A stretch of 64,000 bases of DNA from Candidatus Peribacteria bacterium RIFOXYB1_FULL_54_35 (GTDB lineage Bacteria > Patescibacteriota > Gracilibacteria > Peribacterales > Peribacteraceae). The first letter of the stretch is position 1. The number at the start of each line of letters is the position of its first letter. The position numbers were made by a program, and so were the translations under genes. Positions 53,414 to 62,217 of this stretch are shown here, one piece after another. The notes below the pieces were generated by a model that was given only the letters and a program-made list of their open reading frames with translations, was not told the DNA's origin and did not search any database. The stretch is from NCBI GenBank assembly GCA_001787755.1, contig MFYJ01000013.1, positions 62,001-126,000 of the forward strand, read 5' to 3'.

Positions 53414-53493
53414 AACAAAGAACAGTTTACAGAAGAAAATGTGTGCGCGGAATGATTCGGAGAGAATCTGTATCTTCTTAGGGAATCGGATTA

Positions 53494-53624
53494 GACACGG
53501 CGCCGTTTGTCGGTGAACATCATTGCTGCGGTGACGGCTGAGCAAAGCCAGTGAAGCTCCACGGGCTTACGCCCGTGGCCTCCTGCGGAGTCGGGTGAAA
53601 GTTTGATTGGAAACGGCGCTGTGT
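53494..53624 (-). mobile_element. MITE-like element, copy 1
   Basis: 131 bp with inverted ends ACACGGCGCCGTTT and AAACGGCGCTGTGT (13 of 14 match) and an internal hairpin CCACGGGC-TTAC-GCCCGTGG. It is flanked by TTAG and TTAA, a possible imperfect 4-bp target duplication. A second copy in opposite orientation lies at 61919-62084. Confidence 0.75.
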
Positions 53625-53631
53625 TTAACAT
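53603..53631 (+). promoter_or_regulatory. pgpA promoter, -35 inside the MITE-like element
   Basis: TTGATT (53603-53608) within the element, exactly 17 bases, then TAACAT (53626-53631) just outside it. The ATG of pgpA is 6 bases further on. Confidence 0.55.
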
Positions 53632-53637
53632 AGAACC

Positions 53638-54120
53638 ATGAAGCGTCTGACTACCTTCTTCCTGAGCTTGTTTGGTGTTGGCTTCATCTCCGGCATCGAG
53701 GGAACGCTCGCGAGCATCCTGAGTATCCCCATTATTCTGCAGATATACCCTCTCCTCCCCTCCTCTCAGCCGAAACGATTCCTCCTGTACGGGTGCATTT
53801 TCCTGGTGCTCATGGTGTTTGGCACTGTTGCCATCTCCCACTGCTCCCGGGCTCCCAAAGACAACGTGGACCAGTCTTTCATCGTGTTGGATGAAATGGT
53901 GGGCATGATGGTGGCACTCCTGCCCATGATGATGACAGGACAGTTTGTCTGGTATACCCCCGTCATTGCTCTCGGGCTCTTCCGCTTCTTCGACATAGTC
54001 AAACCCCTCGGAATCGGCGCGATCGACCGAAAGAATACTCCGCTCTCGGTGATGATGGACGACGTGCTCGCAGGAGCGTACTCCGCCCTTGTCCTCCTCT
54101 TTCTTATGAACGTACTGTAA
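53638..54120 (+). CDS. pgpA: phosphatidylglycerophosphatase A
   Basis: 160 aa with four hydrophobic stretches. The PgpA signature is recognisable in order: an N-terminal GFISGIEGTLAS segment (equivalent to the usual G-x-PGT-x-GS), FIVLDEMVGMMVALL, FRFFDIVKPLGIGAIDR, and SVMMDDVLAGAYSAL with the acidic DD pair. The enzyme removes the phosphate from phosphatidylglycerol phosphate in the membrane, the last step of phosphatidylglycerol synthesis. The promoter appears to be made partly by the transposon-like element upstream. Confidence 0.88.
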   Translation: MKRLTTFFLSLFGVGFISGIEGTLASILSIPIILQIYPLLPSSQPKRFLLYGCIFLVLMVFGTVAISHCSRAPKDNVDQSFIVLDEMVGMMVALLPMMMTGQFVWYTPVIALGLFRFFDIVKPLGIGAIDRKNTPLSVMMDDVLAGAYSALVLLFLMNVL

Positions 54121-54124
54121 GGCT

Positions 54125-54153
54125 TTGACAGAACAATCCTGGAAGTCAACAAT
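54125..54153 (+). promoter_or_regulatory. promoter of the coiled-coil protein gene
   Basis: Perfect TTGACA (54125-54130), a 17-base spacer and AACAAT (54148-54153), 9 bases before the ATG at 54163. Confidence 0.6.
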
Positions 54154-54162
54154 GACTATCCT

Positions 54163-55998
54163 ATGTCCCCTCTGAAGACCATCACATTCGAGGAATTGCG
54201 AGAGAGAAATGAGAACGCACTCACACGAGTCAACTACACTCCTGAAGGTGACTTCAGCGTTCTCACCGCCTATCAGCGGCGGAGAGTGCAACAGCTCCTG
54301 ACCGATCGTGCCCATTTGGAAGATCTCGCTTCCACCCAAAATCAGAGGGAATCGTACGGCATAGAGCATTGGCACAGTCAGTTCGTGCGTCTGCGCGATA
54401 CGGGAACTCATCCGGACTCCACGCTGGAAGGAGACGAGCTCCGGCAACGCATTTGGGATGCCGTGCCGAACTCACGCTTCAGGCGGTTCCAGGAGGCATT
54501 CTGCCACCCCCACCAGTTCATTGCCCCCCCATTCAAAATTCATGAGGGAAACCGGGTGGAATTCACCGGCAACCCAGACTTCAATACGATAAGTCTGGAG
54601 CCATGCCTCGTGAGCGCGGACCGCATCCCGGAGAAACTGGCAGAAGACCTTGGCCTGGTGGAATTGGAGGAATCGGACCGGAGCCACCCGTACGAGAGAC
54701 TGAAGAAGAAAGCGGAACTACATGCCATCGCACGCTTAAAGAAGATCTGGGAATCGGCGGTGCCGCTCCAGAGGGGGCATCACCGCATTCTCGCCATCCA
54801 GCAATCCACTACCACAGTGGATGCCCGCTACCCCGGTGTGGCAGAACCGGGAGATGGACTCGCTGGCACCATCCTCTATACGCGGGAAGAGGAGAACGGG
54901 AGAGAGCAGGCCAAAGCAGCAACAGAACCCCCGCGGCAGCTCTCTGTGCAACATTTCAGAAGCGTGTATTCCGCACATCGGAAAACATTCCACGAAGCAA
55001 AAGCATACAACAGAGAGATCGACCAGCTCGGCAAACTGCAGGAAGAATTGCAGCTGCTGAATACTCAGATAGACCGTGAGTGGAAAAAGGAGACGCCAGA
55101 GGAAGACAAGGATCGCATGCTTGCCGAAGCCCGCACACTGGTTGCACAGGGACATAAGTTGCTCGCAGCCTGCGAGAACAAATACAAAGTGCGGGCAGAC
55201 GATCTCCTCGCAGGCCTCACGGAGTTGGGACCGGAGAAGCACAAGCAGAGAATCAGTGCTTCTCTCAGTAAGATGGTCGCTGTTATCAACCGCCTGCAGA
55301 GCCGCTTCGAAGAGATGTACCCCAAAGGAGGGTATAACGAGCAGGACCAGATGGTCCTGGGGACGCACATCACACGGAACGAACGCTGCATGCGGCAATT
55401 CCGTGGTCACGTGCAGCAGAATGCGCCTGTTCTGGACAATGGTCTGGCTCTCTTTGGGGGGAAACCGCTCACAGAACCGCAAGTGGAGACCCAAACAACC
55501 GGCGTACTGCGCAGGATGCACATCCACCCGGACGACCTGAACGGGGTGCAGCTGCGCCCGTTCACTGTGTACGCCGGAAAACTGCGGGAGAAGTGCAGTG
55601 CACTCGGATCCGCCTTAAGAGCACGCAACCAGCGTGGTGCCAAAGACGCGGTAGTGCAGATGCATGTCATCGGGAAATTCCAGGAGGTACGCACCTGCTT
55701 TGAACAAATCAAACAATACGTCATTGATGGAGAGCGTATCCCCATAGCCCGTATCCGGGACTTCGTGCACCACATGAACGGGCTCTTCTCCACGTTCCAA
55801 GTTTTCCCTGATCACATTGTGGCAGGATACGAGGGGCCGTTCACGCATATGCGCGATGAGCTTGAGCGCATAGAGCAGGGACTTGCCTACTATGCAGACC
55901 GGGACGTAGACGTCGGCACGCGCGCAGAAATCTACAAGAGTCTGAAGCAGTACATTGAACAATTTGATATTGAGGAAATGGTCACAGCACTTGCCTGA
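54163..55998 (+). CDS. large hypothetical protein, probably coiled coil
   Basis: 611 aa, highly charged, with no signal peptide and no membrane segments. Residues about 260-420 are rich in heptad-like helix (EIDQLGKLQEELQLLNTQIDREW...), consistent with a coiled coil. The first 200 residues contain a globular-looking part with FEELRERNENAL and YQRRRVQQLLTDRAHLEDL. The C-terminal third is again helical. No catalytic motif stands out. It has its own promoter and is followed by a long non-coding region. I cannot assign a family. Confidence 0.75.
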   Translation: MSPLKTITFEELRERNENALTRVNYTPEGDFSVLTAYQRRRVQQLLTDRAHLEDLASTQNQRESYGIEHWHSQFVRLRDTGTHPDSTLEGDELRQRIWDAVPNSRFRRFQEAFCHPHQFIAPPFKIHEGNRVEFTGNPDFNTISLEPCLVSADRIPEKLAEDLGLVELEESDRSHPYERLKKKAELHAIARLKKIWESAVPLQRGHHRILAIQQSTTTVDARYPGVAEPGDGLAGTILYTREEENGREQAKAATEPPRQLSVQHFRSVYSAHRKTFHEAKAYNREIDQLGKLQEELQLLNTQIDREWKKETPEEDKDRMLAEARTLVAQGHKLLAACENKYKVRADDLLAGLTELGPEKHKQRISASLSKMVAVINRLQSRFEEMYPKGGYNEQDQMVLGTHITRNERCMRQFRGHVQQNAPVLDNGLALFGGKPLTEPQVETQTTGVLRRMHIHPDDLNGVQLRPFTVYAGKLREKCSALGSALRARNQRGAKDAVVQMHVIGKFQEVRTCFEQIKQYVIDGERIPIARIRDFVHHMNGLFSTFQVFPDHIVAGYEGPFTHMRDELERIEQGLAYYADRDVDVGTRAEIYKSLKQYIEQFDIEEMVTALA

Positions 55999-56109
55999 GA
56001 AACTATCCAGACAGAAACCCCCTGTAGCCAGATACCTACACCCTAAGCTGCAGAAGGTAATTTTTTGCAGTCTCCTCGCCATCTTCGCAAAGACATTGTA
56101 TAAGCTATG

Positions 56110-56868
56110 AATTTCTTCCGAGCCCTACTGTAAGCCAAAAATGAGATAACACTCTCGTACAAAAAATATATTCAAGAAACAGTATTTGGCTTTGGCTAGG
56201 GCTCTTTCTTGCATAGCAGGCATGCCATGAGTACGATGCCCAGATTTGCTCCGAAAAACGGAACGCAAATCAAGGCCATCAGCCTACGCCCTCAGTACAG
56301 AGGGCACCCTCGATCCTTCAGCGCTGACTACGGACTTACCACGGCTTCGGCCGACACGTCAGCCTAGTGACCCTTGCGGTCTCAAGAGATACACACAAAC
56401 AAACACACGTCCGGTCGGACAGACAAACAGTCTCTGTCCGACCGGACACATCTCGCTCCTTCCCACCACCGATGCTGTAGAGAGAATGGTGATCATGCAC
56501 ATGCCGAAGCACATACTTCTCCCAACTCCCTATGTTGGGCACAGAAGTCCTTGTCTTCTCCCGCATGTGTCCGTGATTACCATTCTCTCTGCTGTGCAAT
56601 GTTCGTGCCGCCGCAATAGAGGAGAGCTGGTGGCATGCACCCCCTTGCTCCCCAGTGTTCTCTGTCGCCCTCGTGCACAGTGTAAAAGAGCCGGTACGGG
56701 GACTTCGTCGGTCACGAGGAGAAACAAGAGACCAGAGCTCGGCAGCGGGTTGAGGGCTCCTCCCCTCACTGACCTACTTCACTGACTCAGTAGCTTCCTA
56801 GACTAGCTATTGATAGTCAGAAGGTCACACACACAAACAAAAAGGACCAGCCATTCTGGTCTTTTTTG
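56110..56868 (+). ncRNA. candidate large structured non-coding RNA
   Basis: Nearly 1 kb between genes has no convincing reading frame but many strong hairpins in series: GAGCCCTA (56120-56127) with TAGGGCTC (56197-56204); GCCCTC with GAGGGC (56288-56305); a perfect 15-bp stem between 56409-56423 and 56433-56447; a long stem starting GAGAGAATGGT (56480-56490) with ACCATTCTCTC (56579-56589) enclosing CCCAAC/GTTGGG; CCTCGTG with CACGAGG near 56669-56718; and a final intrinsic terminator. The left boundary is uncertain. It lacks RNase P, tmRNA and SRP landmarks that I would recognise. Confidence 0.45.
56842..56868 (+). terminator. intrinsic terminator of the structured region
   Basis: GACCAG (56845-56850), loop CCATT, CTGGTC (56856-56861), followed by TTTTTT, with A-U pairs extending the stem. 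The clearest classical terminator in the window. Confidence 0.85.
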
Positions 56869-56871
56869 TAA

Positions 56872-56980
56872 GGAATGTGGAATATGGAATGTGGTATATC
56901 GGGAAAGGAGCAAATGAGTAAAGACCAAAGGGAAAAAGCCCACATTCCACATACGATATACGACATTCCATATTCAATCC
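56872..56980. repeat. spacer stem-loop, TATGTGGAATG-word type
   Basis: GGAATGTGGAATATGGAATG on the left, CATTCCACATACGATATACG on the right. Confidence 0.7.
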
Positions 56981-56985
56981 CCCGA

Positions 56986-57486
56986 TCAGGCTCCCAAAAC
57001 GCTGTGCTCGTGCCTCAGGAGCCACTCCTTCCTCCATGCGCCATGCGCGTACTCCCCTACCTCCCCGGAAACAGGAACAACCCTATGACAGGGAATAAGC
57101 AGTGAAAGCGGGTTGCGGCCAACCGCGGAACCTACTGCCCGCACCGCTTTTGGATGGCCAATACCGGCAGCCACCTGGCTGTACGTTCTCGTTTCCCCGT
57201 AGGGAATGGTGATAAGATACTCCCAGACTTGAAGCTGGAAATCCGTACTCTGGATTGCGAGGGGCAGGGAGTGGAAATTATGCTGCGACCCCGAAAAATA
57301 CGCATGGAGCTGATCCATGCAGGGCTGGAGAATCTCGTAGACACCTGCATCTTCCCGTTCCCCTTCCACAAACAGAACACTGGAAATGCCACGCTCGGAT
57401 CCACGGACGAGAAGGAGCCCAATCGGACTCTCGTAGTAACTGTGGACATGCGCGGAAACACCCTGCATTTGCGAAAAGGATACCAT
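56986..57486 (-). CDS. ogt: methylated-DNA--protein-cysteine methyltransferase
   Basis: 166 aa from ATG 57486; a second ATG at 57468 lies 8 bases after TATCCT and may be the real, leaderless start. The N-terminal domain is the usual small alpha/beta lead (SPIGLLLVRG). The catalytic domain has FQLQVWEYLITIPYGETRTYSQVA, GNPLSLL-type context as RNPLSLLIPCHRV with the active-site Cys in PCHRV, and the end EWLLRHE. The enzyme takes the alkyl group from O6-alkylguanine irreversibly. It is divergent from the small membrane gene at 57527, 40 bases away. Confidence 0.93.
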   Translation of the reverse strand: MVSFSQMQGVSAHVHSYYESPIGLLLVRGSERGISSVLFVEGEREDAGVYEILQPCMDQLHAYFSGSQHNFHSLPLAIQSTDFQLQVWEYLITIPYGETRTYSQVAAGIGHPKAVRAVGSAVGRNPLSLLIPCHRVVPVSGEVGEYAHGAWRKEWLLRHEHSVLGA

Positions 57487-57513
57487 GTGAAAACGCGAAA
57501 AAAGAAAAAGTGG

Positions 57514-57745: not shown

Positions 57746-57752
57746 GATAACC

Positions 57753-57818
57753 CGTTCTCTCGTTAGCTCGTTCCTCGTTCGAACAAGCCAACGAGGAAAC
57801 GAGCGAACGAATCAACGT
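57753..57818. repeat. spacer stem-loop, ACGAG-word type
   Basis: CGTTCTCTCGTTAGCTCG on the left; CGAGGAAACGAGCGAACG on the right; GTTCGAAC at the apex. Between convergent genes. Confidence 0.7.
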
Positions 57819-57846
57819 GAGTCATCCATGAGACAAACGCCCATCT

Positions 57847-61880: not shown

Positions 61881-61908
61881 ATCGTAGCAGCGACTGCAGA
61901 GAATGCAA
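61881..61908 (-). promoter_or_regulatory. promoter of the EamA permease
   Basis: Minus-strand TTGCAT (61903-61908), a 16-base spacer and TACGAT (61881-61886), 9 bases before GTG 61871. Confidence 0.5.
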
Positions 61909-61918
61909 AAGCTTCTCG

Positions 61919-62084
61919 ACACGGCGCCGTTTCCAATCGAACTTTCACCCGACTCCGCAGGAGGCCACGGCCGTAAGGCCGTGCCTGCACGCCGGAGTGC
62001 GTTTCGGCACGCAGGCGTGGAGCTTCACTGGCTCTGCGCAGCCGTTATCGCAGCAATGATGTTCACCGACAAACGACGCCGTGT
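61919..62084 (+). mobile_element. MITE-like element, copy 2
   Basis: 166 bp with ends ACACGGCGCCGTTT and AAACGACGCCGTGT (13 of 14 inverted) and a perfect 4-bp flanking duplication CTCG (61915-61918, 62085-62088). It matches the reverse complement of 53494-53624 except for about 35 extra bases forming an additional hairpin. No transposase is encoded. Confidence 0.8.
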
Positions 62085-62217
62085 CTCGCGCAGCATACGT
62101 GGGTTTCCTCTGCTTGGCTGAGGAGCACACAGCACAGGAGACTGACCGCCTCTTAGGAAAGCTCTGTAAAACTAATCAGCATGGTGAGCTTGCCGAACTG
62201 CTGCAGCCACCCAATAG

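Follow-up and report, generated by a model that had tools for sequence, protein, structure and literature searches.

A predicted large structured noncoding RNA with a pseudoknotted core in Candidatus Peribacteria

Results

The locus and its surroundings

The window analysed here is a stretch of 64,000 nucleotides from a Candidatus Peribacteria genome of 1.56 Mb, which holds three copies of the RNA described below, the window copy included. A 611-aa reading frame without a Pfam match (54163-55998, plus strand) is found just upstream of the RNA gene. Downstream of it come ogt, for O6-methylguanine methyltransferase, and then an O-antigen ligase gene, and a second genome (G024) has these two genes in the same order after the RNA. 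Other copies occupy conserved loci beside glyA, a TraG-like ATPase gene and hrcA, beside a group with secF and trigger factor, or with gatB on one side and efp on the other. The gene orders seen in other families were cofE-like–RNA–mscS and RNA–murI–guaA. Gene names given without a Pfam result were read from the sequence. Orthologs at the same locus were not clearly more alike than paralogs within one genome. The features of the window copy are collected in Table 1.

Two further elements of the window lie apart from the RNA. ORFs at ~53491-54447 (minus strand) and 61903-62121 (plus strand) have near-identical translations (PFPI.LSPDSAGGHGRK ... ELHWLC.AV.AAMMFTDKRRRV), and a conserved DNA repeat seems to be present here twice. 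In addition, an intergenic inverted repeat rich in CGTT/AACG (CTCGTTCCTCGTTCG...CGAGGAAACGAG) is located at 57750-57830.

Table 1. Predicted features of the RNA gene, in window positions
Feature	Position	Strand	Remarks
Palindromic site, consensus TGAATACA-N3-TGTATTCA	56156-56174	+	first base at -87 relative to the predicted transcript start; probably bound by a regulator
-35 element TTGCAT, 17-nt spacer	56209-56214	+	TTG hexamer 16-19 nt before the -10 element, 61 copies
-10 element TACGAT	56232-56237	+	TACGAT, TACAAT or TATGAT in 50/61 copies (selected on a -10-like sequence)
Predicted transcript	56243-56867	+	~625 nt; from promoter and terminator positions; fold z -14.3 against mononucleotide shuffles
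H1, hairpin at the extreme 5' end, GATTTGC.../...GCAAATC	56243-56271	+	
Variable 5' module	56266-56405	+	related module tandemly repeated in the contig C12 paralog
Perfect 15-bp hairpin	56409-56447	+	sequence varies among copies
Conserved pyrimidine-rich strand, family form GATCCTTCACACCACCG	56455-56471	+	
P0 5' strand, GTAGAGAGAATGGTGATC...	56477-56502	+	partner permutation, 43 copies
P0 3' strand	56567-56592	+	last bases CTCTCTGC (56585-56592) also P1 5' strand
P1 5' strand CTGC	56589-56592	+	pairs with GCAG 56742-56745
P2 hairpin	56604-56637	+	7/8 pairs with double changes; loop GAGGAG 56619-56624
P3, CCCC/GGGG and GTTC/GAGC	56650-56701	+	7/8 pairs with double changes
H-type pseudoknot, S1 CTTCGT/ACGAGG, S2 GGTC/GACC, A-rich loop AGAAACAAGA	56703-56733	+	
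P1 3' strand GCAG	56742-56745	+	
P4 hairpin GAGGG-CTCCTC-CCCTC	56752-56767	+	loop complementary to P2 loop, 6/6 in the window copy
P5 with conserved 2-nt AU bulge, TGACTCAG.../...TTGATAGTCA	56770-56827	+	
Intrinsic terminator GACCAG-CCATT-CTGGTC-TTTTTT	56845-56867	+	also in homologs

Existence and extent of the RNA gene

An earlier note on this DNA had proposed that the segment 56040-56868 is a large ornate RNA that ends at an intrinsic terminator, and the fold, the covariation and the absence of a conserved reading frame all support such an RNA. The segment folds with -320 kcal/mol, compared with -237.7 ± 8.4 kcal/mol for 20 dinucleotide-preserving shuffles (z -9.8). The proposed 3' end was confirmed, as the terminator is present, but the 5' boundary has to be moved: the transcript is predicted to start near 56243. 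Against mononucleotide shuffles, the strong folding signal was confined to the transcript, and 56040-56242 exceeded chance by little (z -2.3); this part precedes the predicted start and represents promoter and regulatory DNA outside the transcript. Judged from the sequence, a stand-alone noncoding RNA gene with its own predicted promoter and terminator is well supported, and so are the extent and the fold of its product. Transcript lengths among homologs range from 377 to 833 nt.

The only long reading frame, to which the note had denied any protein character, runs from 56246 to 56785 (179 aa) and has no Pfam match. In comparison with two same-genus copies, its substitutions were spread evenly over the three codon positions (8/9/8; 19/14/16; 13/12/15), and the core lengths of the homologs represent all three frame classes. 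By these measures the frame is without coding constraint, and no conserved reading frame is apparent.

Promoter and upstream palindrome

Promoters were compared in 61 copies, 60 from Peribacteraceae and one from another family, which had been selected for a -10-like sequence followed by GAT. The counts for the -10 element are not independent, because the copies were selected on it; the -35 element and the features considered after it are independent. The -35 sequence in the located promoters was mostly TTGC, 16-19 nt upstream of the -10 element. A strict generic scanner reported no sigma-70 site. The transcript start is further marked by H1: a helix of this type with at least six pairs, beginning at the first transcribed GAT, was present in 58 of the 61 copies (14.8 expected), and its variants GATTTG/CAAATC, GATTTC/GAAATC and GATTTA/TAAATC retain the pairing.

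It was also found that a palindrome with at most four mismatches occurs in 40 of the 61 promoters and in about 1% of shuffles, and that 39 of the 40 are positioned at -86 to -88. Its right half, TRTATTCA, was seen at -75 to -77 in 29 promoters, with 0.4 expected. The palindrome of the window copy is degenerate (CGTACAAAAAATATATTCA, 5 mismatches out of 16). The fixed position at -87 suggests that the RNA gene may be under the control of a transcription factor. In the complete genome of a relative (G032), both RNA genes carry the palindrome; since it also occurs elsewhere in this genome, it probably belongs to a regulon and does not mark the RNA alone. One such place is position 375013, where a perfect TGAATACA-N3-TGTATTCA coincides with the beginning of a TspO-like gene, which adjoins a DUF1295-like gene (both were identified by eye). 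The palindrome at the TspO-like gene suggests a regulon that would include the RNA.

The core fold

Covariation, which the note had named as a check, proved strong. Among 42 copies from the family, 26 of the 37 pairs in the seven core helices had double changes, and 168 double-change cells were counted compared with 47 in shuffles (0 of 500 shuffles reached the observed value). Core cells were paired in 92% of cases, and sliding the partner by one column reduced this to about 45%. The structure had been drawn by eye from these 42 sequences, and the class-wide test therefore matters: in 22 sequences, mostly from other families, there were 60 double-change cells compared with 18 (0 of 500). By this comparison, all seven core helices are seen to carry compensatory changes. 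P5 alone gave 112 double-change cells in 65 copies, as against 56 with permuted partners (maximum 85 in 500 permutations).

In 67 of the 75 Peribacteraceae copies examined, the H-type pseudoknot outscored every one of 30 shuffles. In Peribacteraceae S1 has the form CYTCGT/ACGAGG and S2 the form GGTC/GACC; in other families the sequences of both stems differ and the pairing is retained, S1 being CGGTCC/GGACTG, CGATCT/AGATTG, CGTCG/CGACG, CCGTCG/CGACGG or AGCCG/CGGCT.

By comparison among the copies, the loops of P2 and P4 also pair with each other in a kissing contact. GAGG faces CCTC in Peribacteraceae, and elsewhere GACCAA faces TTGGTC, GACTAA faces TTAGTC and CGACGA faces TCGTCG. Over 102 copies the contact reached 10.8, compared with 7.75 ± 0.53 for permuted loops (0 of 200), and outside Peribacteraceae 15.3 compared with 12.5 ± 0.8 (0 of 500), these figures coming from fixed windows chosen after the pattern had been seen. 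Within Peribacteraceae alone the signal was weaker, with 3 of 300 permutations reaching the observed value, and some copies have no such contact. An automatic pass also gave a weaker signal, with the P2 loop misassigned in several copies.

The 5' half and the P0 and P1 helices

Both stems singled out in the note are present: the perfect 15-bp stem is formed by 56409-56423 with 56433-56447, and the long stem, here called P0, by 56477-56502 with 56567-56592 (26 positions). P0 is backed by covariation, as 90% of its cells were paired in 43 copies, compared with 78% for permuted partners (maximum 81%), and 98 double-change cells were counted compared with 33 (maximum 56 in 1000 permutations). In the paralog on contig C12 (~194243-195050, minus strand), a module of ~100 nt from the 5' half forms tandem repeats, and a hairpin is inserted beside CTCTCTGC.

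P1 has four pairs in the window copy and six in most copies. Over 81 copies 91% of its cells were paired; the helix is nearly invariant, so that the pairing rests on few double changes. A second CTCTGC was slightly worse as the partner in P1 (86% of cells paired).

The conserved strand CUCUCUGC has alternative partners, upstream in P0 or downstream in P1: CTCTCTGC pairs with GYAGAGAG upstream and with GCAGAG downstream. Two arrangements are conceivable: coexistence, in which both helices share the strand or P1 turns to the neighbouring CTCTGC, and mutual exclusion. The pairing counts favour the shared strand but do not settle the matter. P0 is longer than P1 and is transcribed first, and the alternative pairing may constitute a switch.

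Distribution

A DNA search of 59 genomes picked up homologs in 33, every one of which belongs to Candidatus Peribacteraceae. A covariance model of 182 positions (R1) detected one to three copies in each of 71 of the 74 Peribacteraceae genomes, members of the CPR; of the three genomes missed, one (G029) contains a copy that runs off the end of a contig, and the other two are 75% and 82% complete. Exact pattern matches fell on records labelled Candidatus Peribacteraceae, Peribacteria or Peregrinibacteria and on one contig labelled Uhrbacteria, which is possibly a binning error.

Weak matches in other families proved by their sequence to be real homologs. Two hits of model R2 (L171 and L175) were judged spurious. 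Among 353 genomes of the class, wider covariance models detected the RNA in 99 (E ≤ 0.05) and then in 139 (E ≤ 1e-3). With the limit set at E ≤ 1e-8 the matches cover 13 families of the class, that is, Peribacteraceae and 12 further ones. The last model was built without families f16, f21, f22, f23, f24, f27 and f9, which makes their recovery independent of it. Outside the class there was no reliable match. With model R3, other classes of the phylum yielded seven hits (E 2e-5 to 0.012), mostly short or partial, which we do not claim and which indicate the noise level. No match to the RNA was found in phage and plasmid records or in a pattern scan of viral contigs, and a search of open-licence papers yielded no description of it.

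Comparison with known RNA classes

In a full scan with Rfam 15 at the gathering score, the window gave no match except one tRNA. Relaxing the threshold to E ≤ 10 in the RNA region, or to E ≤ 5 for six homologous loci, produced chance matches only. The note had seen no landmarks of RNase P RNA or tmRNA, and both were located elsewhere in the genome, above the cut-off: RNase P RNA (RF00010), without a match in the region, at C11:169490-169976, and tmRNA (RF00023) at C13:51890-52299. ARAGORN reported nothing in 55500-57500, and the RNA has no tRNA-like end or tag frame. The 6S RNA model (RF00013) did not match the RNA, and a sub-threshold match lies at C11:109339-109493.

An SRP RNA was considered because RF00169 is silent in the genome and because the RNA has a passing likeness to 4.5S RNA. 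This model, of an SRP RNA with a GGAA-capped helix 8, gave no match genome-wide, this RNA included, and the large SRP model RF01854, applied to the RNA region, gave none either. The idea was rejected because the SRP hallmarks are missing and the sequences of the pseudoknot strands change from one family to another. In the complete relative a pattern search found no motif of the SRP GTPases Ffh and FtsY, and in the host genome no small SRP RNA was detected. These are weak negatives; the SRP system may have been lost or may have diverged strongly. Since no RNase P, tmRNA, 6S or SRP identity emerged, the RNA was assigned to a new family among the large structured RNAs.

The Rfam models of OLE, ROOL, GOLLD and HEARO also gave no match. 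ROOL and GOLLD are phage-linked. The RNA described here lies on the chromosome and occurs in almost every member of one family, unlike these two and unlike OLE of Gram-positive extremophiles. It differs from all three in its host group and in its core of P2–P4 kissing loops and an H-type pseudoknot, and resembles them in its size of several hundred nucleotides, its ornate conserved fold and its noncoding nature. OLE, ROOL and GOLLD are large ornate bacterial RNAs whose roles are largely or partly unknown (PMC12286853, PMC9723947). With 6S RNA it shares a free-standing, chromosomal, noncoding gene and long helices, and with tmRNA and RNase P RNA a conserved, pseudoknotted structure of several hundred nucleotides. 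We know of no such pseudoknot core in 6S RNA.

Discussion

Large structured RNAs of unknown role are rare, and most are known from Firmicutes or phages. The window copy is probably a stand-alone large structured noncoding RNA, one of three in its genome and a member of a new class-wide family. As to its function, we infer a regulated trans-acting ribonucleoprotein scaffold as the most likely role, a reading that we hold about as readily as we doubt it; a base-pairing regulator ranks second. On this reading, the RNA would be compactly folded and act in trans. A protein or a ligand would be held by its conserved unpaired bases next to P1 (UCUGYRAUG, AGCAAGGCAG), and the variable 5' half would carry the output. 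Synthesis of P0 comes before that of P1, which can form only once P0 has opened at least in part; assembly may therefore work as a switch that is timed or regulated. A transcription factor bound at the -87 palindrome would control the gene.

The base-pairing regulator would use the exposed pyrimidine-rich strands GATCCTTCACACC, GTTCCTCCC and CTCCTC to mask the Shine-Dalgarno sequences of messages, with the fold serving only to protect and present these strands. The 5' half does contain conserved unpaired strands rich in CCTT and CCTC, the gene has its own promoter and terminator as in known trans-acting RNAs, and there are several paralogs per genome. However, the CTCCTC loop of P4 is better explained by its contact with the P2 loop than by an anti-Shine-Dalgarno role; both loops co-vary in other families, and the remaining pyrimidine strands are known in this analysis only from Peribacteraceae. 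We regard this role as doubtful, clearly behind the scaffold.

A ribozyme or self-processing RNA appears improbable: the compact fold with its pseudoknot, its loop-loop contact and the nearly invariant unpaired bases round the central helix would suit one, but no known ribozyme core was recognised and no cleavage or splicing site or interrupted gene was seen. It is more improbable still that the RNA is a divergent SRP RNA, 6S RNA, tmRNA or RNase P RNA. Its class-wide chromosomal occurrence, its roughly fitting size and the silence of the small SRP model in the genome speak for such a housekeeping RNA; against it stand the genes or sub-threshold match located elsewhere for the last three, the lack of any Rfam match, the absence of SRP hallmarks and, as a weak negative, of the GTPase motif, and the presence of up to three copies per genome, which is unusual for such RNAs. 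ROOL and GOLLD are often mobile or phage-derived; for the present RNA such a nature is hardly credible, because despite several copies per genome and the frequency of large structured RNAs in phages, the phage, plasmid and viral-contig searches were negative and the RNA is nearly universal in its family at conserved chromosomal loci.

That so large an RNA is conserved in genomes of reduced size speaks for an important function, one that could not be guessed from protein annotation, and uncultured Peribacteria may depend on an undescribed RNA device. With distinctly less confidence than for the scaffold, one can imagine that this CPR class possesses an ancient RNA machine, either a catalyst or the central part of an essential ribonucleoprotein of unknown kind, that is transcribed under a dedicated regulator and assembled by a strand exchange from P0 to P1. 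The fold is defined well enough for probing, cryo-EM and compensatory mutation.

A separate observation concerns the ribosome of the complete relative. At the 3' end of its 16S rRNA (~1202092 in G032), GGAACATCTCCTT takes the place of GGATCACCTCCTT, so that the anti-Shine-Dalgarno region is altered.
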